From positions 26,700,422 to 26,764,421 of the forward strand of contig CM067344.1 of NCBI GenBank assembly GCA_034190875.2: a stretch of DNA of 64,000 nt, written 5' to 3'. This document shows positions 14,692 to 53,336 of the stretch, one piece after another. A model generated the notes under the pieces. It did no database searches and was not told the origin of the DNA. It saw nothing but the letters and a program-made list of their open reading frames with translations. The position numbers and the translations under genes were made by a program. Each line of letters starts with the position of its first letter. The first letter of the stretch is position 1. The DNA comes from Urechis unicinctus (lineage: Eukaryota > Annelida > Polychaeta > Xenopneusta > Urechidae).

Positions 14692-17600
14692 TTACCGAGC
14701 ACAGTGGCGCATGCGCATGGACATCATTATCATTGTTCCTCCCGTCACGCTGCTCAGCCCATTAAACACGAATGACCAGGTGTAGAAGCCGAAGAGATCC
14801 CGCAGTAATCCTGTTACACCACATGGGAAAAGTCTTCACTTCAAGCTAATTCATCTTCTTAAACATGAAGAAACCAGTCAAATATGTATTTCTCTACTTT
14901 ATAATGCACGCGATGTTGTATAATACAAGCTACTGGGCGGTTTAATGTGGTAAAAACTTTCGATTGGGTCATTCACCTGATAATACTGGCCCAACGAAAA
15001 TACTCAGCCCAATGCAGGACAGACACCAACCTAAATAAAATGGAAGATTTTTTGGGCCATACATATCAACCAATATGGCGGCTCGTTGGCTGGCAATAGC
15101 TCCTCGAAGCAAACCATGGCAACTGCAAATAATAATGAGGACTTTGTAATCATGAACGAAGCCAGTGGTGAGGATAACACAGCCACAGACAATAGAAATG
15201 GCACAGTACAGATAGCGACGACACCTCCTGATAGCCGGCAAATCAAAAAATAATCCGATCACAAGTCGTCCAACTGTGTCAAATATTCCACTGACTGCCA
15301 GCAAGAACACTGCATTCTGATTCAATATACCCACTTCTCGTGCATAATCCACAAGAAGTTGTAACGAGGCGATCGAGGATTGGGTGACCAAAGCTAGGCC
15401 AATGGCATAGGTAACAAAGGACTTGTTGATCAACTGAAATGATTCGAAACAATTGAGACATTTGGAGGAGGAGTTAGTCGTCTCTCTCTGTATTTGTGCG
15501 TGTCTCGGCAGACGACAGATATCATGTGATTTCTCGGCATTGGACGCTTCGTCAGTTACAGGTCCTATATCGCCCAGAGACGTTTCTCCTCGCAACTCAT
15601 GGCAAACGTCTCCCGGTGAACTCTTTGTGAGGGTGCGAGGACGTGGGAGAGGTCGCAGAAGCCCGGCGAGACAACAACTATTCAGCAACAACGCGCCAAA
15701 GATGAAGAATCCACCACTGAATCCGTAGGTGTTAAAGAGTATATCCAGCAGGGGCGGAGCAGCAAACCCAGCGATGCCCCCGCCTGTTGCAGTGATACCA
15801 TTGGCCAATGCACGACGAGAACTGAAATACTGATTGACCAGAATGAGGCAGGGTGAGTAGATCAAAGCGCCACCTACTCCTGAAAAACGCGGTATATACA
15901 GGAAATGATCAGATCACACCACAGGCGCTCGGTTCCCGATGCCAAGCTTCCGAGCGGCTGACGAGCGCCGAGCCACTATCTATATATATTTCGAGGTATG
16001 AAACAGATAGTTCGTGCTGTCTCATCTTTCCCGCATTCACACACGAAATCTCTGTCTTTCATTCGGTCCATCATACATTCTGATCAGTGTTTCTGATGCT
16101 TAAAAGAATTGCTTCCACAATTAATCGTCGATAACATTCTATGGAGCACCAGAAAAACTCATCGCAATGTGTGATGTCCGGGGTGAAATATATAGTTTTC
16201 GCGTGTAAAAGACGGAAGGGGGAGGCAGAGGCACCGGTCATTTACACACCTTGTAGTTTATACAGACAGTGGTTCGGCGATCGGAACCAGCTCGGCGCTC
16301 GGAAGCTTGGCAACGGGAACCGAGCGCCTGCGATCACAACGATAAACAGGGAGCTAGTTATATTACAGCTTTACAAGCATTAACAATAGGGCCAGGTGAC
16401 TAATCGCCGTAATTATTCGCCGAATAAGAGATTTACTATAGGATGAGACTTACCGGTACCCACTCCCTGCATAACAATCATGTACCCAACGTTGGGCGCC
16501 AATCCACACAATACCGTGGAAGTTCCCATAATAAAACCGCCTATGAAGACGACAACGCGAACAGACGACATACTGCTCAAACTAGTAGCAACGTGACCTG
16601 GACATAAACCATGGTTATATGAAATAACCACGTCTCCAAATGCATACAAGACTCAACGATTTCACTTGACACATACAACATACGGTGACAATTACCTCCT
16701 CGATATGGATACTCATACTTTTTATATCATGGAATAACCTATTTTGATTTGTCAGGATGAAAGCTCTCAGTAGACTGTTGGTCAATGTGATTTAGTATGC
16801 TAACCTCTGGTAGTATGCTATGCTAGCCACTTTCTTTCCAACAACACGAAAGCATCTCAGCATGAACAATTGGCATATCCTTTGAGTGTTTTTAATTGAG
16901 CCGCAATCTCAACATGGAAATTGTGATGTATGCAAGAAATACAATGGCGGGGTTGTAGTACGTAGTGGCACTCACTGAGGAAGTATGGTACAGCGGCGTT
17001 GACAGAGCCCACAAGAGAAGCTGCCACCGAAGAACAATCGAATACCTCACGCATTTTGACGTACACAACCTACACATTCGTCACACCAAATTTACTTCAG
17101 ATTCAAACGTCGGCAATTTGTTTCAATCCATCGACATCGATCAGTTATCAATGTGTGTGTGAGTGTGTGTGTGAGAGAGAGATTATATGTGTCTGTGTGT
17201 GTGTGCGTGCGTGTTTATGTATGTATGTGTGTCTGTGTGTGTGTATGTGTGTGTGTGTATGTGTCTGTGTGTGTAAGAGAAAGAAAGAAAGAGAGGGGGG
17301 CTGAGAGGCAGAAAAAGAGAAATGTTATCACTCGCCCCTGATGTTGCAGGAGGGGCTGTCTGCAGAATTTGAAGTAGGAAACAGGAAGTGACGACACACC
17401 AACCCCAACCTCCATCTGGTGCTGAATCCTCGGAGGTGGTGGAGCGCGTCTCCTGATCGTTGTCATCCACCACGTCGACAAACGAGCTGTTGGACGGAAT
17501 CAACGTTTGATGGCCAATGCGTTTTCTCAATGTGATGAGTCAATAACGAGAATTGTTCAATTGAGAGACTAATTACCACAACTATGTTATGATTACAATA

Positions 17601-18647: not shown

Positions 18648-18887
18648 AGTTCTCGGTTACAGCGTCACATTATGTTGTTCCTATCCTTGGTGAACTATTG
18701 TTACAGCGTCACATTATGTTGTGCTTGTCCTTGGTGAACTAGGGTTACAGCGTCAGTTTATGTTCAACCTATCCTTGGTGAACTATGGTTACAGCGTCCC
18801 ATTATGTTGTGCCTATCCTTGGTGAACTACGATTACAGTGTCGAATTATGTTGTGATTATCCGTGGTGAACTACGGTTACAATACAA
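18648..18887 (+). repeat. Tandem repeat, unit about 44 bp, five copies
   Basis: Unit: 'ggttacagcgtcacattatg' then 'ttgtgcctatccttggtgaacta'. Five imperfect copies. The same repeat has about three copies in copy B at 42,285-42,400. It marks the right end of the region shared by both copies. Confidence 0.85.
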
Positions 18888-30302: not shown

Positions 30303-32930
30303 TCACCGAGCACAGTGGCGCATGCGCATGGACATCATCATCATTACACCTCCCGTCACGCTGCTCAGCCCATTAAACACAAATGACCAGGTGTAGAAGC
30401 CGAAGAGATCCCGCAGTAATCCTGTTACACCACATGGGATAAGTCTTCACTTCAAGCTAATTTATCTTCTTAAACATGAAGCAACCAGGCAAATATGTAT
30501 TTCTCTACTTTATAATGCACGCGATGTTGTATTACACAAGCTACGGGAAGTTTAATGTGGTAAAAACTCTCGATTGGGTTATTCACCTGCTAATACTGGC
30601 CCAACGAAAATACTCAGCCCAATGCAGGACAGGCACAAACCTAAATAAAATGGAAGATTTTTTGGGCCATACATATCAACCAATATGGCGGCTCGTTGGC
30701 TGGCTATAGCTCCGCGAAGCAAACCATGGCAACTGCAAATAATAATGAGGGCTTTGTAATCATGAACGAAGCCAGTGGTGAGGATAACACAGCCACAGAC
30801 AATAGAAATGGCACAGTACAGATAGCGACGACACCTCCTGATAGCCGGCAAATCAAAAAATAATCCGATCACAAGTCGTCCAACTGTGTCAAATATTCCG
30901 CTGACTGCCAGCAAGAACACTGCTTTCTGATTCAATATACCCACTTCTCGTGCATAATCCACAAGAAGTTGTAATGAGGCGACCGAGGATTGGGTGACCA
31001 AAGCTAGGCCGATGGCATAGGTAACAAAGGACTTGTTGATCAATTGAAATGATTCGAAACAATTGAGACATTTGGATGAGGAGTTAGTCGTCTCTCTCTG
31101 TATTTGTGCGTGTCTCGGCAGACGACAGATATCATGTGATTTCTCGGCATTGGACGCTTCGTCAGTTACAGGTTCTATATCGCCCAGAGACGTTTCTCCT
31201 CGCAACTCATGGCAAACAGAGCAAACGTCTCCTTGTGAACTCTTTGTGAGGGTGCGAGGACGTGGGAGAGGTCGCAGAAGCCCGGCGAGACAACAACTAT
31301 TCAGCAACAACGCGCCAAAGATGAAGAATCCACCACTGAATCCGTAGGTGTTAAAGAGTATATCCAGGAGGGGCGGAGCAGCAAACCCAGCGATGCCCCC
31401 GCCTGTTGCAGTGATGCCATTGGCCAATGCACGACGAGAAAGGAAATACTGATTGACCAGAATGAGGCAGGGTGAGTAGATCAAAGCGCCACCTACTCCT
31501 GAAAAACGCGGTATATACAGGAAATGATCAGATCACACCACAGGCGCTCGGTTCCCGATGGCAAGCTTCCGAGCGGCTGACGAGCGCCGTGCCACTATAT
31601 ATATTTCGAGGTATGAAACAGATAGTTTGTGCTGTCTCATCTTTCCCGCATTCACACACGATATCTCTGTCTTTCATTCGGGCCATCATACATTCTGATT
31701 AGTGTTTCTGATGCTTAAAAGAATTGCTTCGACAATTAATCGTCGATAACATTCTATGGAGCACCAGAAAAACTCATCGCAATGTGTGATGTCCGGGTTG
31801 AAATATATAGATTTCCCGTGTAAAAGACGGAAGGGGGAGGCAGAGGCACCGGTCATTTACACACCTTGAAGTGTATACAGACAGTGGCTCGGGAATCGGA
31901 AGCGGCTCGGCGCTCGGAAGCTTGGCAACGGGAACCGAGCGCCTGCGATCACAACGATAAACAGGGAGCTAGTTACATTACAGCTTACAAGCATTAACAA
32001 TAGGGCCAGGTGACTAATCGCCGTAATTATTCGCCGAATGAGAGATTTACTATAGGATGAGACTTACCGATACCCACTCCCTGCATAACAATCATGTACC
32101 CAACGTTGGGAGCCAATCCACACAATACCGTGGAAGTTCCCATAATAAAACCGCCTATGAAGACGACAACGCGAACAGACGACATACTGCTCAAACTAGT
32201 AGCCACGTGACCTGGACATAAACCATGGTTATATGAAATAACCACGTCTCCAAATGCATACAAGACTCAACGATTTCACTTGACACATACAACATACCGT
32301 GACAATTACCTCCCCGATATGAATACTCATACTTTTTATATCATGGAATAACCTATTTTGATTTGTCAGGATGAAAGCTCTCAGTAGACTGTTGGTCAAT
32401 GTGATTTAGTATGCTAACATCTGGTAGTATGCTATGCTAGCCACTTTCTTTCCAACAACACGAAAGCATCTCAGCATGAACAATTGGCATATCCTTTGAG
32501 TGTTTTTAATTAAGCCGCAATCTCAACATTTATGGAAATTGTGAAGTATGCAAGAAATACAATGGCGGGGTTGTAGTTCGTAGTGGCACTCACTGAGGAA
32601 GTATGGTACAGCGGCGTTGACAGAGCCAACAAGAGAAGCTGCCACCGAAGAACAATCGAATGCCTCACGCATTTTGACGTACACAACCTACACATTCGTG
32701 ACACCAAATTTACTTCAGATTCTGACATCGACAATTTGTTTTAATCCATCGACAACGATCAGTTATCAATGTGTGTGTGTGAGTGTTAGAGAGATTATGT
32801 ATGTATGTATGTATGTATGTATGTATGTATGTATGTATGTATGTATGTATGTATGTATGTATGTATGTATGTATGTATGTATGTATGTATGTATGTATGT
32901 ATGTATGTATGTATGTATGTATGTGTATGT

Positions 32931-36012: not shown

Positions 36013-38250
36013 TCGTACACACTACTTACGGTTGTTTCGTACACGCGAGATTGGTTGTTTCGTACACGCAATATCAAAAGCAGTTGTTCCGTATGTAATG
36101 CTTAGTGAAGTAACTACGTAATATACTTCTAAATATAAAATATCTGGTATCGTGTTTTATTATTTATTTTCACAAAGTTTTATTAAGAGTTGGCTTGAAA
36201 AAATGTTATGGCTTGTGTAGACTAGAGCATCTATTAATCTAATGGGTACCCTCCACGACGAATGTAGTGCTTAAAATCAAAACAGCAAGTAGACCACCCT
36301 GCTCCATCCTTGTCTCAGTGGAACCAAAATCGGGAATTTAAACACATCCCTCCCCCGTTAAATACGGCAACTGAATATGACCAGGCTATATTACACAATC
36401 GCGACGCGTTTTGTCTTCTTCGACAAGTTCACATTATACCATTTTCACATTTTGCAATTTTAGCATGAGCAAATATGATGTCACAATACTGTATCTCATC
36501 ATTGATTAACAGCATTTGAAAGTTTTTTTATTGACTACTGCATAATCATAGAAAAACTTTAACGAGTGTTTTGGGCAGTTTAGGCAGGGCACATTGGACG
36601 GCTGTGATGCAGAAGTAGGTATTTCCCCCTACTCTATATACAATTAATACGTGATGCATATAGTATCAAACAACATAATAGTATATACACGTTTAAGATA
36701 TGCAATGTATTGTGATTCAAACATTAATTAGGGGGATGCGGGAGGGGGAATTGTTGCAGCTGTGAAGGCAATCAAGCGAACAACCCGTGCGTGGTGGGGC
36801 TGGATGCTAGGTCACGTGACGAGCATACGACCTCGACATTGACTCGAAAAATTCAAATGGACCACATTGTCTTCCCATGTGACGTCACACGGTCCGGTGC
36901 CGCCATGTTGGAGTATAAGCTACCGCCAGCGCGCTGCACTTTGACGAGAGGTAGCTTGGAACGTGCCGGCGCGTTATGTTTCCCACGTTCTTCATTGATC
37001 AAAGGGGTCATTTCATAATACGAAATTTATGTGCCATCGTTGATTGTGCCATCATTGGTTGTGCCATCGTTGGCTGTGCCATCGTTGGCTGTGTCAACAG
37101 GGGTAACCGAGATAAAGACAAATCACTGTAAAATCTATGCCAATATAATCGCTTATGTTATCATATACTCAACGTCTTCACAACCCACCATGTGTAACGT
37201 TGCTGTGATCTTGTACAGGTTACTCTTGCTTGTAATATATTCTAGAACTGAAAGCGAAAGTTGGTACTGTGATGGAACCTACAGTGAGTCGTGAGAGCCT
37301 CATTGAGTGTGGAGTGTCCATGCTCAGACGAGTTTTAAATCAGGTCGCATTGGCCTTTTACCTCGTGTCAGGAAAGCACAAGAAATATCAAAGGTATTAA
37401 GCGTGTCCTTCTTATTACCGCAAATGCAAGAAAAAAAGTGTTCCTTATAAAGGAGAAACAGCCGAGAGGTCATTTAAACGTGTGGGTCCTGGCGCAAGTA
37501 TACGTGGGTGGTTACGTATATTAATGTGATTGTGCGTGTGTGCAGGGGTGTAGCCAGCGATACCCACTTACGCACGTGCGCAACAGCAATTTGAACTGTA
37601 GATTTCTCCCCCGTAAATGCGTAATATTCCTTCAAGCCTGGCTACGCCCCTGGTATGTGTGTATATGTATAGACAAGTATATATAAGTAACACATTATTT
37701 TGCTTTCTGCATAACATAACTAACGATGTACGTTTTGAATGGCTAGATCTTTGAGAAGCTCATATTACTGTACTATGAATTGGCATTCAATAAATTCATT
37801 ATTTTAACTAGAATTGATTAAATTTTATATGGTGAACCCCAACGGTTAGATCTGAAAGGTTTGTTATAATAAATCCCCTACTATATAATTACTACTACTG
37901 CTGTTTCATTTAATTTATTTTAGTCTTCACATTAATTGCATGGCCGAATTGATTTGTGGCCGATTAACTCAAGGCCGAGTTGACCATCCTCGCCAGGTAA
38001 GACGTAACATCTGGATAACTCATGATTAATGCAAAAAATGACCTACGATGTCATAATTCGAAAAAGATAACAATAACAGGCATATGAGCAGACACATCGT
38101 ATTCAGTGTTCATGTCTGCGTATTATCGAAACAATTCCCATTTGTGTACGAAACGACCTGTGTTCATGTCTTGTGTACGAAACGACTCCCAGTCCTGTGT
38201 ACGAAACAACCATCGGTGTACGAAACGACCTGTGTACGAAACGCGGGTGT
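36010..38250. mobile_element. Non-coding insertion in gag with reiterated GTTTCGTACAC ends
   Basis: At the left end GTTTCGTACAC occurs three times within about 60 bases (36,009-36,070). At the right end its reverse complement GTGTACGAAAC occurs five times (38,145-38,245). The interior has no transposase-like frame. It holds an 18-bp tandem repeat ('gtgccatcgttggctgt', 37,031-37,097) and an inner inverted pair 'ggggtgtagccag' / 'ctggctacgcccc' (37,546 and 37,636). The ends suggest a DNA transposon with repeated transposase-binding sites. The family is unknown to me and no target duplication was found. Confidence 0.6.
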
Positions 38251-38269
38251 ACAAACAGGGTGCATACAA

Positions 38270-41200
38270 TGCAAACCAAGAAAGGTTATCCCAAGCTTGC
38301 AAATAAGAAGCCATCATTCCAACCACCCCAACATCAACATCAAAAACAGTGTTATCGTTGCCTCTCACAAAAGCATCATCACAGCAAATGTGTCGCTAAA
38401 GATATGATTTGTAACTACTGTCACAAGAAAGGACACATTGCCAAGGCATGTAGAAAGAAAAATGGTTGTCGAATTCAAAAGACATGTCATATCTCCGAAC
38501 AACCACTACAGACCATTACCACCGATGACATTGTGGAAGAATCACTACATACTGTTTACTCTGTCAGTGACTGGATCGGTCCTGCGCCTCCGCTAATGGC
38601 AGTGATGGAGGTAAACGGAAAAGAGCTTGAAATGGAGATTGACACAGGAGCATCAGCCACTCTGATGAGTAAAACAAAATTTGATGAATTTTTCCAGTCA
38701 AAGCAGCTCAAGAAAAGTAGATGTAGTCTATCCACTTATACAAATGAGAAAGATCAAAGTGGAAGGAGAAATTGAAGTCTCAGTCAAACATAATGGACAG
38801 GAAAAGAATCTGCCCATTCTAGTGGTATCTGGTAGTGGTCCAACACTACTGGGTAGGAACTGGCTGCAACATGTCAAAGTCGACTGGGGCGAGGTACATG
38901 CTATCAATGTACACGGTACATCTAAAATCAACCAGTTGTTAGAACAGTATGATGAACTGTTTAGTGATGAACTAGGTCAGCTTAAAGGAGTATCCGCACC
39001 ACTACAAGTACCTGCTGATGCTAGACCATGCTTCTTCAAAACCAGACCTATTCCCTATGCACTGAGGGATCCTGTTAATGAAGAGATTGATAATCTGGAA
39101 GCAAAAGGAGTAATAGAAAAGGTCCAGCATTCTGATTGGGCAGCCCCAATTGTACCAGTAGTTAAACGCGATGGAAAGAAGATAAGACTATGTGGTGACT
39201 ACAAGGTGACTGTCAACTCTGTAGCAAAAACAGACACATATCCAATTCCACGTGTGGAGGATCTATATGCTAGACTTTCTGGTGGACAAAAGTTCTGTAA
39301 ACTAGATCTCAGTAATGCCTACCTGCAAGTAACACTACATCCGGATAGCAGGAAGTTCACTACAGTCAACACACCACGTGGACTGTTTCAGTACAAACGT
39401 TTGCAGTTTGGCATTTCGTCGAGTCCGGGAATCTTCCAGCGATGTATGGACAATTTGCTTGGTGACCTGGTGTATGTTGCTACTTGGATGATGTGCTCAT
39501 ATCCGCACTATTGGTGGAGGAGCATCTCTCGATTCTGGAAAGAGTATTCCAATGTCTCTGTACAGCAGGATTGCGTCTAAAGAAGGACAAGTGCACCTTC
39601 TTATCCAGTGAAGTATCATATCTAGGACACAAGATTGATGCATCGGGACTGCATCCTCTTGATGACAAAGTGAGAGCTATCGTAGAAGCTCCACAACCAA
39701 CCTGTATAGCGGAGTTGAGATCGTACCTGGGCATGCTTAACTATTACAGTAAATTCCTACCTGATTTGGCTACCATACTCGCTCCACTTCATCACCTACA
39801 GAGGAAAGATGTTGTATTCAAGTGGGGTGATTCTCAAACAGCTGCATTCAACAAGTCAAAGGAACTTTTGAATTCATCTCGGTTGTTGGTACATTATGAT
39901 CAGGGGCAGCCAGTGGTTGTTTCATGTGACGCATCTCCATACGGCGTTGAGGCCGTTATGTCCCACGTATTCCCTGATGGTACAGAAAAGCCAATTGCTT
40001 TCGCTTCAAGATCGCTCAGCGTTGCAGAGAAGAATTACTCTCAGCTTGATAAAGAAGGCTTAGCTGTCATATTTGCAGTACGCAAATTTCATCAATATCT
40101 TTGGGGACGCAGATTCTCCATTATGACGGATCATAAACCTTTGTTGGGTTTGCTAGGGGAAACTAAGCCTGTACCAGTGATGGCGTCTCCTCCTCGTGTT
40201 CAACGCTGGTCACTGATACTAGGGACATATGACTACCACCTAGTTATAGACCTGGAAATCTGCTAACGCCAACGCTGATGCAATGAGCAGACTTCCTTTG
40301 AAAGATTCACCAATTAACCCTCAGCCTTCTGGAGAAATTGTGTTGTTATTGAATCATATTAATGATCAGACTACTCTATCGGTGAACCTGATTAGACAAT
40401 GGACTCAGAAAGATTCAACATTGAGTAAGATCTGTGAGTTACTCCAACAAGGTTGGCCTGAAGGTCTACAAGTGGATGAACCTTTAAAACCCTATGCTAG
40501 CAGGAGGATGGAACTCAGCATAGAAGATGGATGTATCTTGTGGGGTATTCGTGTGGTTATTCCCCCACAAGGTCAGAAGAGATTTCTTGATGAATTACAC
40601 ACCGCTCATCCTGGTGTTACCAAAATGAAAACATTAGCTCAGAGCTATGTGTGGTGGCCTCACATTGACGTGGACATTGAGTCAGTGGTGCGTGAATGCA
40701 ACAGTTGTCAAGCTATTCGCAAACCTCCCCCGGAAGCACCCCTACATCCCTGGGAATGGCCCGATACCCCCTGGGATCGCCTCCATATTGATTACGCTGG
40801 TCCATTTATGGGTAAAATGTTACTGATCATAGTGGATGCATGTTCTAAATGGATTGACTGTCATGTCATGTCATCCAGCACCTCAACAGTAACCATCGAG
40901 AAATTGACTGAAAGTTTTGCCATACATGGTCTTCCAAGGACAATTGTGAGTGACAATGGATCGTCATTCACCAGTGAGGAATTCCATAAATTTACTCGCT
41001 CAAATGGCATCCAACATATCACATCCAGCCCGTGGCATCCCGCTACCTACCAACGGATTGGCAGAAAGAGCAGTTCAGACTATGAAATCTGGTGTTAAAA
41101 AGATGGAAGGAGGAACTTTGGAAAGTAAAGTGTCACGCTTCCTGGCTCGATATAGAATCACGCCTCACAGCACCACCGGTGTAACACCATCAGAACTGTT

Positions 41201-41743
41201 AATGAAACGTAAAGTCAGATCACGCCTGGATCTTATTCGTCCAAGCATCACGACACGTGTTCTTGCTTCTCAATCAAAGCAGAAGTACTACCATGATCGA
41301 CACACCCATCCACGTACCATTGAAGTGGATGACACTGTGCATGTCAAGAACTTTGCATCCGGCTCTCCCTGGCTAGCCGGTACAGTAATTGACAAACCTG
41401 GACCTTTGTCATTCCGTGTGAAACTAGAGGACGGTAGAGTAATCCGTCGTCATCTGGATCATATGAGGATGCGTTACAGTAGTGGTAACTTACCCGTGGA
41501 CTCGCCTATAGTTACGCCGAACGACGACGTAGGTGCAACACCACACTTACCTGATTCTGGAGTGCATACACCTAGAGTAGTTCCAGTTGAATCCCAGAAC
41601 ATTCAAATTTCTAGTGTTTCACCCTCTGCTACACCCAATGTTGAGACACCCAAACCTGAAGTAAGTGTGTCACCTGCCCGGATCAATGGTGGACGCCAGT
41701 CTACACGTAGGAGTAATCCACCAGTGAGATTGATCGAACAGAT
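38270..41743 (+). pseudogene. gag zinc knuckles and pol (protease-RT-RNase H-integrase) of the Ty3/gypsy element
   Basis: Zinc knuckles CYRCLSQKHHHSKC and CNYCHKKGHIAKAC (38,350-38,450); aspartic protease MEIDTGASATLMSK (38,632); reverse transcriptase with CKLDLSNAYLQV and LQFGISSSPGIFQR; the catalytic LDD stands at the start of the next frame (39,484); RNase H with VSCDASPYG and TDHKPLLGL; integrase zinc-binding part (HTAHPG ... CNSC), catalytic D (HIDYAGPF), D (VSDNGSSF) and E (NGLAERAV), and a C-terminal chromatin/DNA-binding tail (YHDRH to VRLIEQM, stop 41,745-41,747). Frame breaks: about 38,740 (protease), about 39,478 (immediately before the RT active site), about 40,250 (after RNase H) and about 41,042 (integrase, a 4-bp tandem duplication of CTAC). 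Confidence 0.9.
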
Positions 41744-41870
41744 GTGATTCCATTGAACATTGAGCTATTTTGATGATTATTATTAATATTATTATTGGTA
41801 ACATTCGTACAGTATTGATAGTTTGCATTTTGTCTGATATCATGGAAGTCATGATTTAAGTGTGGAGGAA

Positions 41871-42119: not shown

Positions 42120-42284
42120 ACTGTGACACAATTAATTAACACTCTTCAAATGAAATAAGATCGTTGTTTTATTTAGCTTTATGGGGGAAAAAACTTGGTT
42201 GTTAGATATTGAAGGATATTACCTGCCATATCGGTAAGGCTGTAAGTGCAAGGTCATATTTTGCTGGGCCAGTTCTTGGTGAAC

Positions 42285-42400
42285 TACGGTTACATCGTCA
42301 CATTATGTTGTTCCTAACCTTGGTGTACTGTAGCGATTACAGCGTCACATTATGTTGTGCCTATCCTTGGTGAACTACGCGGTAGCATCGTCAAATTATG
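42285..42400 (+). repeat. Tandem repeat, unit about 44 bp, about three copies (copy B)
   Basis: 'ggttacatcgtcacattatg', 'gattacagcgtcacattatg' and 'gcggtagcatcgtcaaattatg' with 'cctatccttggtgaactac' between. Equivalent to the five-copy array at 18,648-18,887. Confidence 0.8.
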
Positions 42401-46733: not shown

Positions 46734-49700
46734 CTAGAGTTCTTCTCTGCTACTAAAGATGGCACCAACAAATTGGGAAAACACTTTGTTCATGTAGTTG
46801 TCATGTCGAGGCAAGAGTCCTTCCAGAAATCCAATATGTCCTCCATGGTGTGTCATAACTATGGCAACATTGTCGCTTTTGCTAGCTTCATCCAGGGGAA
46901 TGGCTGTAATACACACTACCGGTTTATTTACAATACCAGTTTTATTTACAATACACAGGTGATCATCTCATTTCTATTTACAATACGATACATATAGATT
47001 GCCTATCAAGACCTCATGTTAATCATGATCTGTCTGAGCTCTTGTTTGCTACAACAGTATATAAAACTGATAGCATGATTAAATATTACTCAGAGCATTA
47101 ATGAGAATCTCACATGCCTGAAAGGATCGGAACTGATTACTTCATGGAAACTTACCACGTTCGGGGGAGAACATGTCATCTGCGGCATTCAATGCCAGGT
47201 AAGGTATTTTGATATCATGGAGTTTCTTATAGAGACGAGCATCTTCGTAATACTCCTTGTAGGAGGGATAACCAAACACCTTGGACGTGAAGACATCATC
47301 AAACTCTCGTATCGTGCGACACTGTCAGAGCAGTTGAACAATAGATAACAGTAGAAAAAAGATGACATGCCTTACTGAGACAGAATTAACAAATTTTGTG
47401 AGGCATGATATGGATTTTGTTGGTGATATTGATATTTTTAGACCGTTTAAGCTAACAGTGAGCAAAACACCATGTTTATTGAAATGTCAATTCGCAAACC
47501 TTCAAAACCTCTTCCTCGTCAACCATTTCTGTGAACCAGTGAGCATTTCTGGAAGGAAATGAATCCGATAATAAACAACTCTATAAAAAAATAGGGGCAA
47601 AATTGCTTACTGCCCATCAGATAAACAAAACATTGTTACATCCAGTTATGTGTTAACCTGTGAGAAACCGTGGAGCATAAAATATGAAAAGCTCTTGTTG
47701 AGATGCTGTCATACAGTGAGTTAACACATGTGACAAAAGTTCTAATCCCATGATGTTTGTTTGATCAACACACACAATTGAGAATTTTAAAATGACCGAA
47801 AATAGTGGCTCAACCCACTTGTTGAAGACACTGACAAGTCCATTAGTGAGGGTCTTGTTGAAAATGAGACTGTTGATAGGTTCTTCCAGAGTTTTGGTCG
47901 ACTCCAAGACATCCCAGGCTGCTGATATGCTCATGGCTCCCACGAGTTGGCATTCATTCCCCATCATGGCTACATAGTTGCTGAGAATGAGACTGGAACA
48001 AAACAACAACAAAATCAAATTACATTTGATCCAAACCAGAGTGAGTTATGTTATGGTGTGGCAGGTTTGCAGTGTCAAATTCATAGCAAAGCAAGTTGAC
48101 TTCCCGGTCAATGTTTCAAAATAAGTCCAATGAGATTTAAAATAAAGATCGTTACAAAATACAAAAAAGAATTATTTGACTGCTTGAGAGCCTCCCCCAA
48201 TGTACTCCCATATCAAGTCCCTGTCACCCCCACACACACACAAACACACACATCACACTATCTAACTGCACTGTCACCAAACCATATCAAACAATTAACT
48301 AAATAGGATTCTATCATTTTGCATTAACCTCAATTTTGTTGACTGCATAAAACTATAATAATCTTTTCTTTATGACATATATTTTAAAAGAGAAAAATAG
48401 ATTGTCCTAATCAATCAGAACAGACCCGCCCAGTGATATTCCAGCGGCCATGACAGGAGCATCGGGGTAGAGTTTCTTCACATGGTCCACCACTTCTGAT
48501 AAGTCTTCAACATTTGTAGCACAATATGTTCTTGCAGTCTTCAACTCTGCTCCTCCAAAACCACGGTAGTTGAAAACTACAGCCCTGTATGGGAGAGTAA
48601 TGAATTATCAAATATTATAGATGTCTTTAGGATTGATATAATTAAAACCACATTGTTAGTCTTTCTTTATATGATGTAAAGAGCTTGAGTAAATTTTCTG
48701 AATTCAGGGCATCATAAGAGTTATTGCAATTATAACTACTAGTTTCAATGAATATCAATATTAGGAAGTAAATAAACTTTTCACTACATTTCATTGTCTG
48801 GTCACTTTCCTATAGCCTTGCCGAATCACTCAGCCTTGTCGGATCACTTACCTATAACATTGCCTGATCGCTTACCTACAGCCTTACCGGATCGCTTACC
48901 TATAGCATTGCCAGATCCTAGCCTGATTACCTATAACCTAGCCTGATTACCTATAACCTAGCCTGATTTCCTATAACCTAGCCTGATTACCTATATCCTA
49001 GCCTGATTACCTATATCCTAGCCTGATTTCCTATAACCTAGCCTGATTACCTATATCCTAGCCTGATGACCTATATCCTAGCCTGATAACCTATAACCTA
49101 GCCTGATTACCTATATCCTAGCCTGATTTCCTATATCCTAGCCTGATTACCTATATCCTAGCCTGATTACCCATAAACTAGCCTGATTACCTATATCCTA
49201 GCCTGATTACCTATAACCTAGCCTGATTACCTATAACCTAGCCTGATTTCCTATAACCTAGCCTGATTACCTATATCCTAGCCTGATTACCTATAACCTA
49301 GCCTGATTACCTATAACCTAGCCTGATTACCTATATCCTAGCCTGATTACCTATATCCTAGCCTGATTACCTATAACCTAGCCTGATTACCTATATCCTA
49401 GCCTGATTACCTATAACCTAGCCTGATTACCTATATCCTAGCCTAGCCTGATACCTACCTAGCCTGATACCTATATCCTAGCCTGATTACCTGATTACCT
49501 ATATCCTAGCCTGATTTCCTGATACCTAGCCTGATTACCTATATCCTAGCCTGATAACCTAGCCTGATTACCTATATCCTAGCCTGATTACCTATAACCT
49601 AGCCTGATTACCTATATCCTAGCCTGATACCTATATCCTAGCCTGATGATTACCTATATCCTAGCCTGATTACCTATATCCTAGCCTGATTACCTATAAC

Positions 49701-52700
49701 CTAGCCTGATTACCTATAACCTAGCCTGATTACCTATATCCTAGCCTGATTACCTATAACCTAGCCTGATTACCTATATCCTAGCCTGATTACCTATAAC
49801 CTAGCCTGATTACCTATATCCTAGCCTGATTACCTATAACCTAGCCTGATTACCTATAACCTAGCCTTATTACCTATAACCTAGCCTGATTACCTATAAC
49901 CTAGCCTATAACCTATAACCTAGCCTGATTACCTATATCCTAGCCTGATGACCTATATCCTAGACTGATTACCTATAACCTAGCCTGATTACCTATAACC
50001 TAGCCTGATTACCCTAGCCTGATTACCTATATCCTAGCCTGATTACCTATAACTAGCCTGATTACCTAGCCTGATTACCCTAGCCTGATTACCTATAACC
50101 TAGCCTGATTACCTATATCCTAGCCTGATTACCTATAACCTAGCCTGATTACCTTAAACCTAGCCTGATTACCTATAACCTAGCCTGATTTCCTATAACC
50201 TAGCCTGATTACCTATATCCTAGCCTGATTACCTATATCCTAGCCTGATTACCTATATTCTAGCCTGATTAACTATAACCTAGCCTGATTTCCTATAACC
50301 TAGCCTGATTACCTATATCCTAGCCTGATTACCTATAACCTAGCCTGATTACCTATAACCTAGCCTGATTACCTATAACCTAGCCTGATTACCTAGACTG
50401 ATTACCTAGCCCTATATTAGCCTATTACCTTATAACCTAGCCTGATTACCTATAACCTAGCCTGATTACCTATATCCTAGCCTGATTACCTATATCCTAG
50501 CCTGATTACCTATATTCTAGCCTGATTAGCCTGATTACCTAGCCTGATTACCTATATCCTAGCCTGATTACCTATAACCTAGCCTGATTACCTATAACCT
50601 AGCCTGATTACCTATATCCTAGCCTGATTACCTATATCTAGCCTGATTACCTATAACCTAGCCTGATTACCTATACCTATGATTACCTATATCTGATTAC
50701 CTATAACCTAGCCTGATTACCTATATCCTAGCCTGATTACCTATATCCTAGCCTGATTACCTATATACCTGATTATATATCCTAGCCTGATTACCTATAT
50801 CCTAGCCTGATTACCTATATCCTAGCCTGATTATAGCCTGATTACCTATAACCTAGCCTGATTACCTATATCTAGCCTGATTACCTATATCCTAGCCTAT
50901 TACCCTGATTTACCTATAACCTAGCCTGATTACCTATATCCTATATTACCTATAACCTAGCCTGATTACCTATATCCTAGCCTGATTACCTATATCCTAG
51001 CCTGATTACCTATACCTATAGCCTATATATTAGCCTGATTACCTAGCCTGATTACCTATATCCTAGCCTGATTACCTATATCCTAGCCTGATTACCTATA
51101 ACCTAGCCTGATTACCTATAACCTAGCCTGATTACCTATATCCTAGCCTGATTACCTATATCCTAGCCTGATTACCTATAACCTGATTACCTATATCCTA
51201 GCCTGAGCCTGAACCTAGCCTGATTACCTATATCCTAGCCTGATTTCCTATTACCTATAACCTAGCCTGATTATAACCTAGCCTGATTACCTAGCCTGAT
51301 ACCTATAACTAGCCTGATTACCTATAACCTAGCCTGATTACCCTATAACCCCTAGCCTGATACCTACCTAGCCTGATTACCTATAACCTAGCCTGATTAC
51401 CTATAACCTAGCCTGATTACCTATAACCTAGCCTGATTACCTATAACCTAGCCTGATTACCTATAACCTAGCCTGATTTCCTTTAACCTAGCCTGATTAC
51501 CTATAACCTAGCCTGATTACCTTTCAACCTTGCCTGATTTCCTTTAACCTAGCCTTGTTACCTATAACCTAGCCTGATGACCTATAACCTTGCCTGATCA
51601 CTTCCCTACAAATGTACTAACCTATAGCAACATCTGATTATCTACCTTAAGTTTCACCTGATCACTTACCTATAGCCTTGTCTGATCACCTGATGAACAC
51701 AGTGCACAGCATACGATTCCTCGCTGCTTCCTACAACACATGCAACCAACATCAACAAGGTTACAGTGACCTTACACAAAGACATGCTTCAGAACAAGAA
51801 AGGCTTGTGCTTTAAACATCACTGCAGACATCAAAAATAACGATTTTGATCAATTCTCTACTAGATATCATCAGGCCAAAACCCTCACAATATAGCCCAT
51901 CTGCACCCCATGCCCGTAAACAGCTAATGTAAATGTGCCACGCCCTAGTTTTAGGATCCACTAGGACAAGCTTTTCATAGTGGGTAGCACTCCTCAGTCA
52001 ACCATGCATTCCTGTCACCAACACATGATCCTCACTCACACCTGAATGTCACCCATATGACAATGTCACCCATACATGAATATCACCCACATATGAGCAT
52101 CTCCCATACACAGATGTCACCTATATGATCATCACCCATATTTAAACATTACCCATGCATTAATTCCACCTATACATTACATCACTCATACATCACTCAC
52201 CAGTCAAACCAGGCAGCAGGACAACGGTGGGGCGTTCTTGTTTCGAAATTGGGGAATTAACATCATTGTCCATCCAATCCAAGGCAACGTGACCTCCATC
52301 AAGAGTACACATAAACTCCCTGAACATAATATTCGCCCAAGTCAATCCCCTTGATCAGAACATACAATATTTTTTTTGATGTATAGGTCACAAACTTTTG
52401 CACGAAAATTCCAATCTCCCACCAAAATGGTTGTGGGGAGGGGGAGGGGGAGTATACGACATGTACAAGAGTGTGACTTATCCCGAAGTAATTCTGATTC
52501 ACATATGTAAGTATCTCCATTGTGGAATCATAATTAGTGCTACAGAACTGCTGTTTCTTCAACCAAATATCATGTTTGTAAAATGACTAAATCACCTTCA
52601 AAGTTGATTAGCCTTTCTGACAAAGCAATGGTTTCAAATACAATTACACTGAAAATGGCTAGTTCGAGAAAAAAAGCAAAGATCATAGACAAAAGTAGTG

Positions 52701-53336
52701 GTATGCAAGGTCTGATAAATAATCCAGCATTAATGCCCATCGGTCAAATCCACAAATTCTGTTCCAAGATGCATCTGAGAAACAACTCACTTTCTGTATG
52801 GTAATGTGGGAGCTGTCTGTAATAAAGCTCGCACTATAGTTTGGAATCTGCCCTCAAAGCACCAAAAGGTTGGCCAAAATTTACGGTTGATAACTGGGCA
52901 ATGAGTCAGAAGGAATTTCTTCAGTCTGGGGTTGCATGCTACAACAGGACGCTGACACACCAAAACAAAGGTTGAGATTTGAAGAACATTGCAAATACAA
53001 CACCACCTCCATACTTCTTCATTGGACCACACACATAAGTGCAGCCATTCTGACGAAATAGTAAATATCAACACTCATAATTCATTGATAACCTAAACAG
53101 GCTTGGATTCAGAATATTGAATTTCCAGTAAACTGGTAAATATTGCAAAATGATGGCTTTGTTCAGTTTCTGATACTTATTAACTACATTACAAAAACAC
53201 TACCTTAAATATATTGAGTTGTATCACATCCTACCTTAACAACATACACGGAGTACCAACATATATATCCCAAAAATAAGCCGCAAGCAACAGAACCAGT
53301 GGGGTATTGCCGGGCGAGATCCAAATGATCGAACAT
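46734..53336 (-). CDS. ABHD1/ABHD3-like alpha/beta-hydrolase
   Basis: Nine exons on the minus strand: 53,235-53,336, 52,791-52,951, 52,201-52,319, 51,670-51,730, 48,426-48,584, 47,819-47,992, 47,500-47,548, 47,156-47,321, 46,734-46,903. The sum is 1,161 nt with every junction in phase: 386 residues, the usual ABHD3 length. Residues 1-34 hold one membrane anchor (ACGLFLGYICWYSVYVV). Then RLKKFLLTHCP and YPxxWC-like FWPTFWC, DGGHVALDW, VVLLPGLTG, the fold's NYRGFGG, the nucleophile motif GISLGG (Ser), LNAADDMFSP (Asp) and THHGGHIGFLEG (His): a complete catalytic triad. ABHD3 is a membrane-bound phospholipase for medium-chain and oxidised phosphatidylcholine; ABHD1 is its close relative, and I cannot choose between them. 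The intron between exons 4 and 5 contains the large minisatellite. Head to head with the TMEM201-like gene. Confidence 0.95.
48800..51680. repeat. Minisatellite of about 130 units built from the exon-4 5' splice site
   Basis: Main unit on the plus strand: cctgattacctatatcctag (20 bp, variant 'cctgattacctataacctag'), from about 48,905 to 51,600, with partial and fused units. On the gene's strand this is ctaggatatag/gtaatcagg. The exon-4 end of the ABHD-like gene is caaggctatag/gtaagtgatcagg (51,656-51,680). Units at both edges of the array (48,810-48,905 and 51,590-51,680) are longer (about 24 bp) and still close to that junction ('gatcacttacctatagcctt', 'gatcgcttacctatagcatt'). Confidence 0.95.

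Follow-up and report, generated by a model that had tools for sequence, protein, structure and literature searches.

A minisatellite that very probably arose from an exon-intron junction of an ABHD3-like gene in the annelid Urechis unicinctus

An ABHD3-like gene with a large tandem array in intron 4

We analysed a 64,000-nucleotide stretch of the Urechis unicinctus genome (GenBank assembly GCA_034190875.2, contig CM067344.1, positions 26,700,422 to 26,764,421; hereafter the window, from whose first base positions are counted), in which one intron of an ABHD3-like hydrolase gene is occupied largely by a tandem array. The gene appears intact and lies on the minus strand at 46734..53336, as indicated by homology and an open coding sequence. 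Its nine exons (53336-53235, 52951-52791, 52319-52201, 51730-51670, 48584-48426, 47992-47819, 47548-47500, 47321-47156 and 46903-46734), and with them the exon 4 junction, are predicted from homology and reading frame; joined, they encode a 386-amino-acid product with no interruption, with GT-AG at all predicted introns. The closest database sequence is ABHD3 of Capitella teleta (58%), and the protein contains an Abhydrolase_1 domain (E 1.7e-16). A maximum-likelihood tree of 27 ABHD proteins places it with two Capitella sequences (support 98/96), and a wider clade holds Capitella, Dimorphilus and two further sequences (100/99); Owenia, which is an annelid too, is placed elsewhere.

Exon 4 (51670..51730, minus strand) is 61 nt long, ends in phase 2 and encodes a peptide that includes SSEESYAVHCVHQVIRQGYR. 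On the minus strand the exon ends CAAGGCTATAG/gtaagtgatcagg, and the boundary with intron 4 reads GATCAGACAAGGCTATAG/GTAAGTGATCAGG. In an alignment of 25 animal ABHD3 proteins, conservation is at least 90% for each of the glycine, tyrosine and arginine encoded by this exon. The exon had been called a micro-exon in an earlier sequence-only reading of this DNA; although 61 nt is short, micro-exons in the usual sense are shorter than this. The introns that flank it are 470 bp and 3,085 bp long, the latter being intron 4 of the gene model (48585..51669), whereas the seven introns other than intron 4 span 178-471 bp.

The array lies in intron 4, where the sequence-only reading had placed it. Including its degenerate edges, it extends over 2,874 bp (48796..51669, minus strand; about 140 units by length), thus covering 2,874 of the 3,085 bp of the intron and starting at intron base +1 (51669). 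Outside it are 211 bp, the acceptor included. Most of the array is a homogenised core (48917..51598) with the sense unit GTAATCAGGCTAGG(T/A)TATAG, delimited by Tandem Repeats Finder (TRF) and by listing the units: 20 bp, 135.6 copies. TRF reports a separate 24-bp array at 48802-48917 (5.1 copies), within a distal edge (48796..48916) of old 24-bp units that holds three strong donors (GTAAGC at 48899, GTAAGC at 48875 and GTAAGT at 48851). The proximal edge (51582..51669) consists of degenerate units, the first two of them 24 bp long and in register with the true donor. Edge units are thus mostly 24 bp long and divergent, and the 20-bp units of the core are mostly uniform.

Relative to the 24-mer, the core unit lacks four bases and carries a few substitutions. 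Because the loss of these four nucleotides turns GTAAGT into GTAATC, the G at donor position +5 is absent from the core unit. The claim that every unit keeps ATAG/GTAA did not hold: of 123 TATAG contexts in the array, 100 continue with GTAA and 93 with GTAATC. The T/A variants of the core unit show no higher-order periodicity (best lag match 0.57, p 0.85).

The array units resemble the exon 4 junction

The proposed source unit is the 24-nt junction itself, GATCAGACAAGGCTATAG/GTAAGT (51664..51687, minus strand), which differs from the edge-type 24-mer by one mismatch and is made up of the last 18 nt of exon 4 and the donor. In ungapped comparison with this junction, 21 of 24 positions match at 51605, and 19-20 of 24 at 48899, 48875, 48851 and 48833. 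Core units reach up to 18/24, and the background ceiling is 17/24 among 111,908 positions of the window on both strands outside 46-54 kb. The two units nearest exon 4 are degenerate and match the junction at 17/24 each; hence, a clearly closer match to the junction than that of the core is confined to the distal edge and a single proximal unit. The sequence-only reading had held that edge units in general are longer and closer to the junction, which stands for the distal edge and that one proximal unit and fails for the two units beside the exon.

Restricting the comparison to the exonic 17 nt, eight edge and core unit types match at 13-15 of 17 positions with alignment scores of 9-13, all of them above the top score of 7 among 20,000 random 17-mers. 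The core stands out less when the full 24-mer is scored with gaps: it averages 8.3, while the null has a mean of -3.2 (SD 2.7) and a maximum of 9.5 (n=20,000).

We also searched the 1.19-Gb assembly with a word search that skips very common words. All 82 matches to the exact 19-nt core pattern fall in intron 4, and all four matches to the edge-type 24-mer with up to three mismatches lie at the ABHD3 locus. We therefore rejected a repeat spread through the genome, since a dispersed satellite or transposon-derived repeat would be present at other loci. Two doubts that accompanied the sequence-only reading, namely that edge units might be no nearer the junction than random 24-mers and that the same array might recur away from this gene, were thus not borne out. 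No array-free paralogue was available as an ancestral comparison: among ten protein matches in the genome, eight are the window gene and two are distant one-frame paralogues (25-26%).

The direction of copying follows from the units, since they carry coding nucleotides of exon 4 and the Gly-Tyr-Arg which these encode is conserved among animal ABHD3 proteins; the exon is thus the source and the array the copy. Taken together, the unit comparisons strongly support an origin of the array from the gene's own 5' splice junction. The sequence-only reading was right to look for the seed there, although it named the donor alone; because the unit carries 18 nt of coding sequence, the seed appears to be the exon-intron junction.

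A second, shorter periodicity occurs in the same gene. Intron 3 begins with a degenerate, donor-proximal array of 17-bp period (51996..52200, minus strand) that starts at intron base +1, with its GGTGA in register with the true donor, G/GTGAGTG. Lag-17 identity is 0.56, a value reached by none of 3,000 shuffles, and TRF reports a weak row at 52013-52096. Within the first 205 nt, periodicity is significant only in introns 3 and 4 of the eight (intron 3, 0/3000 shuffles; intron 4, 0/500; the other six, p 0.11-0.79). That the intron 3 unit includes exonic bases is doubtful.

Donor strength along the array

We computed pairing with the 5' end of U1 snRNA in an 11-nt context. The true exon 4 donor pairs at -11.6 kcal/mol. 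The dominant core site, TAG/GTAATC (99 sites), has T at +5 and pairs at -6.8 kcal/mol; TAG/GTTATA (55 sites) pairs at -4.1 kcal/mol. All eight predicted donors of the gene have G at +5. The sequence-only reading had offered three outcomes, of which titration of U1 and a shift in donor choice find no support in the weaker pairing and missing +5 G of the core (the counterpoint, that four of the eight gene donors pair more weakly than the core, is taken up below), and neutrality appears the best supported. With exon 4 ending in phase 2, translation beyond the junction would read AG/G TAA and so stop at the first codon of the intron, whichever downstream donor is used.

Junction arrays at other loci

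We viewed the 5' edges of arrays elsewhere in the assembly that contain three copies of AGGTAAGT (29 loci, among the matches listed of 306, excluding microsatellite-like clusters such as L026 and C5:37158126) or of AGGTGAGT (24 of 25 clusters, among the matches listed, about the first tenth of 965; the sequence of L111 stopped short of the array edge, and one duplicate cluster was left out). Judged by eye, reading frame and unit overlap, a coding exon is suggested at four of the 29 AGGTAAGT loci (L067, L082, L068 and L071) and at ten of the 24 AGGTGAGT loci (L088, L090, L101, L103, L104, L106, L107, L108, L109 and L110).

The best supported of these exons belong to two further genes. The exon at L110 (L110:150-531, G000:C3:8857920-8858450) is identified by homology as an exon of mTOR (E 6.3e-12) and is followed by a 37-bp junction-spanning array. 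The exon at L067 (L067:235-801, G000:C6:52547900-52548700) encodes an I9 propeptide (Inhibitor_I9, E 6.3e-5; an unrelated viral family at 0.074 is at chance level), and that at L082 (52576200-52577030) is nearly identical. Because these nearby paralogues share the same 31-bp junction array, the array has probably survived gene duplication. As far as sequence comparison can establish it, the recurrence of junction arrays in mTOR and in the I9-propeptide pair is firm.

Recurrence in genes beyond these is likely. At L071 the sole match, to PPP1R12A, is suggestive (E 0.082), and at L068 the preceding exon and the first residues of the array-side exon match a fragment at 22 of 27 residues. Pfam matches at L101 (VGCC_alpha2, 0.058), L107 (PYC_OADA, 0.066), L103 (Ig_RIMBP2, 0.048), L106 (Na_Ca_ex, 0.012) and L109 (DUF6736, 0.1) fall under the curated cut-offs, and values of 0.012-0.1 are about what ten short peptides yield by chance. 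The Pfam search gave no match for L068, L071, L110, L108, L090, L104 or L088, and a search of PDB gave none for the L101 or L109 peptide and chance-level matches only for L108 and L090. At L088, L090, L104 and L108 the exon is read from an open frame and unit overlap.

The exonic bases shared between the exon end and the next unit amount to 27/33 (L110), 33/37 (L103), 29/36 (L101), 30/33 (L107), 23/28 (L108), 16/20 (L090), 12/15 (L067), 11/13 (L082 and L068), 9/11 (L106) and 8/10 (L071). Little was found at L088 (2 nt), L109 (5) and L104 (1, where the wrong next site was taken). The 33-bp unit at L107 (G000:C3:8315730-8316250) is an open frame of 11 codons, and since it contains no stop, use of a decoy there would extend the protein in frame.

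As a separate observation, the 5' edge at L104 (G000:C2:72713668-72714214) has about 17 units of about 31 bp that keep AGGTGAGT, many strong consecutive decoys beside a possible exon.

We compared both word searches with mirrored patterns. Triples of AGGTAAGT occur at 306 places and those of its mirrored pattern at 618, and the respective figures for AGGTGAGT are 965 and 591. Because places were counted, a long array contributes more than once, and the mirrored words are similar to microsatellites. Relative to the mirrored patterns, an excess of donor-bearing arrays is thus inconsistent between the two words.

Relation to known junction repeats

The sequence-only reading knew of no minisatellite seeded by a donor site at this scale, but elements of this kind have been described. 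Mirages, known from the Adh3, globin and TnC genes of amphioxus, are tandem minisatellites that lie across exon-intron junctions, and PGBD5 holds similar repeats; they are reported not to disturb splicing (PMC3087553, PMC3902484). Length polymorphism, somatic variation included, is a further trait of mirages. The ABHD3 array resembles them in being a minisatellite-like tandem duplication of an exon-intron boundary with many units bearing AG/GT signals (PMC3087553, PMC3902484), and in being homogenised inside with the cluster boundaries excluded (PMC3087553). It shares their defining features: exonic and intronic bases from across the (predicted) junction, with 18 exonic nt and GTAAGT in edge units; contact with the source junction, in a 24-bp register from intron +1 in which the first two units match at 17/24 each; units of minisatellite length, 24 and 20 bp here against 10-72 bp in Adh3 and about 150-160 bp in the globins (PMC3087553); and a uniform 20-bp core between divergent 24-bp edges, as under concerted evolution from which the edges are excluded.

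There are also differences. Mirages, so far as these reports go, were described in cephalochordates, whereas the present host is an annelid in which other genes are affected too. The BflGb6 mirage has six and three units in two haplotypes, compared with about 140 units here. The ABHD3 core is a deletion derivative without the +5 G, unlike the amphioxus mirages as reported for Adh3, the globins BflGb6 and BflGb9, and TnC.

Other systems are similar in part. Internal tandem repeats of human duplicated genes likewise involve minisatellite expansion at an exon-intron boundary; these repeats have a mean of four copies of 30 bp, and new introns or alternative transcripts have been attributed to them, an effect not known for the ABHD3 array (PMC2812944). 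Intron 1 of an earthworm metallothionein gene also contains large minisatellites in an annelid, with monomers of 25-216 bp, some mirror-arranged, for which the text available does not state whether they span a junction (PMC12783039). In the open-licence literature on splice-junction minisatellites, as far as its accessible portions extend, we found no annelid case, though an earlier report may exist. The kind of element is therefore already known; new are the annelid host, the roughly 140 units, the core without +5 G, the intron 3 array and the further junction arrays.

Proposed origin and alternative explanations

We consider it very probable that the ABHD3 array is a mirage-type minisatellite that was seeded by the exon 4/intron 4 junction, grew within the intron and is most likely neutral. 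The origin, the unit forms, the single-locus matches, the computed pairing energies and the read-through stop can be taken from the sequence; the mechanism of growth, the order of events and the disregard of the decoys we infer. The seed would comprise GTAAGT and the 18 nt of exon 4 that precede it. The array may have begun when a segment across the junction was duplicated in tandem, an event perhaps helped by an 8-bp direct repeat, GTGATCAG, whose copies lie 24 bp apart and span the seed. Slippage or unequal exchange inside the intron could then have enlarged it; a 20-bp deletion derivative lacking the +5 G would have been amplified and homogenised into the core, with the edges retaining the old 24-bp form. 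The whole array would be removed with the intron, and the original donor would stay in use because of its good pairing with U1 and its position, the closest of all to the acceptor of the exon. Studies of alternative sites and of minigenes report that, once introns exceed about 250 nt, preference goes to the 5' site closest to that acceptor (PMC9225289). Thus, splicing probably ignores the array.

Several observations weigh against this account. U1 pairing reaches -9.6 kcal/mol or better at five decoys, three in the distal edge (48899, 48875 and 48851) and two inside the array (51367 and 49458), and the one at 48851 equals the true donor at -11.6 kcal/mol. Four of the eight gene donors pair more weakly (-4.9 to -6.4 kcal/mol) than the core decoys do. 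Given these strong decoys and weak gene donors, pairing energy alone cannot rule the decoys out, and their presumed silence depends on a predicted exon model. Other exon-abutting arrays, in a survey selected for intact donors, keep GTGAGT or GTAAGT over several consecutive units; hence, loss of the +5 G is not needed for tolerance. The wider recurrence also fared poorly in two comparisons. An ab initio exon score for which a single gene served as training set was at least 0 at 11 of 53 array edges, compared with 16.6% of 1,200 GT sites drawn at random and 5 of 15 GGTRAGT words that occur singly, and so did not separate them; at loci read as exons it gave nothing for L104 and L068, -11.0 for L071, -2.8 for L107 and -0.1 for L110 (mTOR), a later donor having been taken at L068 and L071. 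Nor did open-frame length separate array edges from an antisense control (554 sites; median 102 nt, 95% 302 nt): three of 29 array edges exceed the 95% mark, namely L067, L082 and L030, and L030 was not read as an exon.

A broader proposal is that splice donors are common birth sites of minisatellites, perhaps in at least a hundred genes, and that the ABHD3 array reached about 140 units by protecting itself, through loss of the +5 G and lengthening of its intron. Lengthening would turn a short intron (211 bp without the array), in which downstream donors would be favoured, into a long, exon-defined one in which the original donor wins. We regard this as speculative and would sooner bet against it; the figure of a hundred or more genes is extrapolated from the ten of 24 array edges, among the matches listed (about the first tenth of 965 places).

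Of the rival explanations, functional decoys survive best, though we think them unlikely. More than a hundred weak U1 sites might compete with, buffer or tune the exon 4 donor, and transcripts degraded by nonsense-mediated decay because of the stop would lower output according to array length. The 99 TAG/GTAATC sites do outpair half of the gene's donors, the five strong decoys are available, and any decoy use meets TAA at once; yet the dominant decoys have no +5 G, cross-exon proximity favours the true donor (PMC9225289), and amphioxus mirages with AG/GT signals are described as splicing normally (PMC3087553, PMC3902484).

It is less probable still, and by a clear distance from our preferred origin, that intron 4 owes its existence to the tandem duplication of an exonic segment bearing AGGT, with the array as a relic of that gain. 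Introns are reported to have arisen from such duplications, one of them a multiple 24-bp duplication in fission yeast (PMC4974935, PMC3443670), and the ABHD3 array resembles the ATP2A1 and fission yeast cases in that short AGGT-bearing exonic segments, even of 24 bp, were duplicated (PMC4974935). The units here, however, hold the end of exon 4 together with intronic GTAAGTGATCAG, and where a gained intron would derive entirely from duplicated exon, with both splice sites from AGGT copies, a remainder of 211 bp, similar in size to the smaller introns of the gene, leads to the acceptor outside the array. An existing intron thus seems to have been lengthened rather than created, unlike in intron gain by tandem duplication.

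A telescripting role, in which U1 held by the array would prevent premature polyadenylation within a long intron, has very little to recommend it: many sense-strand sites pair with U1, but intron 4 is long only because of the array, and its sense strand has no AATAAA or ATTAAA, which leaves little to suppress. An ordinary intronic minisatellite of independent origin that resembles the junction by chance is about as improbable, and we rejected it on the 17-nt and 24-nt comparisons: minisatellites are common in this genome, as the mirrored patterns illustrate, and the gapped score of the core alone overlaps the null extreme, but the exonic 17 nt outscore every random draw, edge units at 19-21/24 exceed the background of 111,908 window positions outside 46-54 kb and the repeat period begins at intron +1.

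These arrays indicate that junction-spanning minisatellites extend to a lineage distant from amphioxus, where they affect more than a single gene and reach a far larger scale. At each of them the spliceosome has to pick one donor among near-identical neighbours, which makes every array a natural experiment on that choice; with arrays of varied length and decoy strength in the same genome, both the cross-exon proximity rule and the part played by the +5 G would become directly testable. They also bear on intron growth and on tandem duplication as a route to new introns.

Other features of the window

Two nearly identical long open frames on the minus strand (14969-15913 and 30579-31532) represent a local duplication; they look like membrane proteins of the monocarboxylate-transporter type. 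On the plus strand, open frames at 38077-41747 resemble, by eye, a Ty3/gypsy-type retrotransposon. A 44-bp tandem unit occupies 18654-18881, and its reverse complement resembles, again by eye, a stretch at about 42260-42400.

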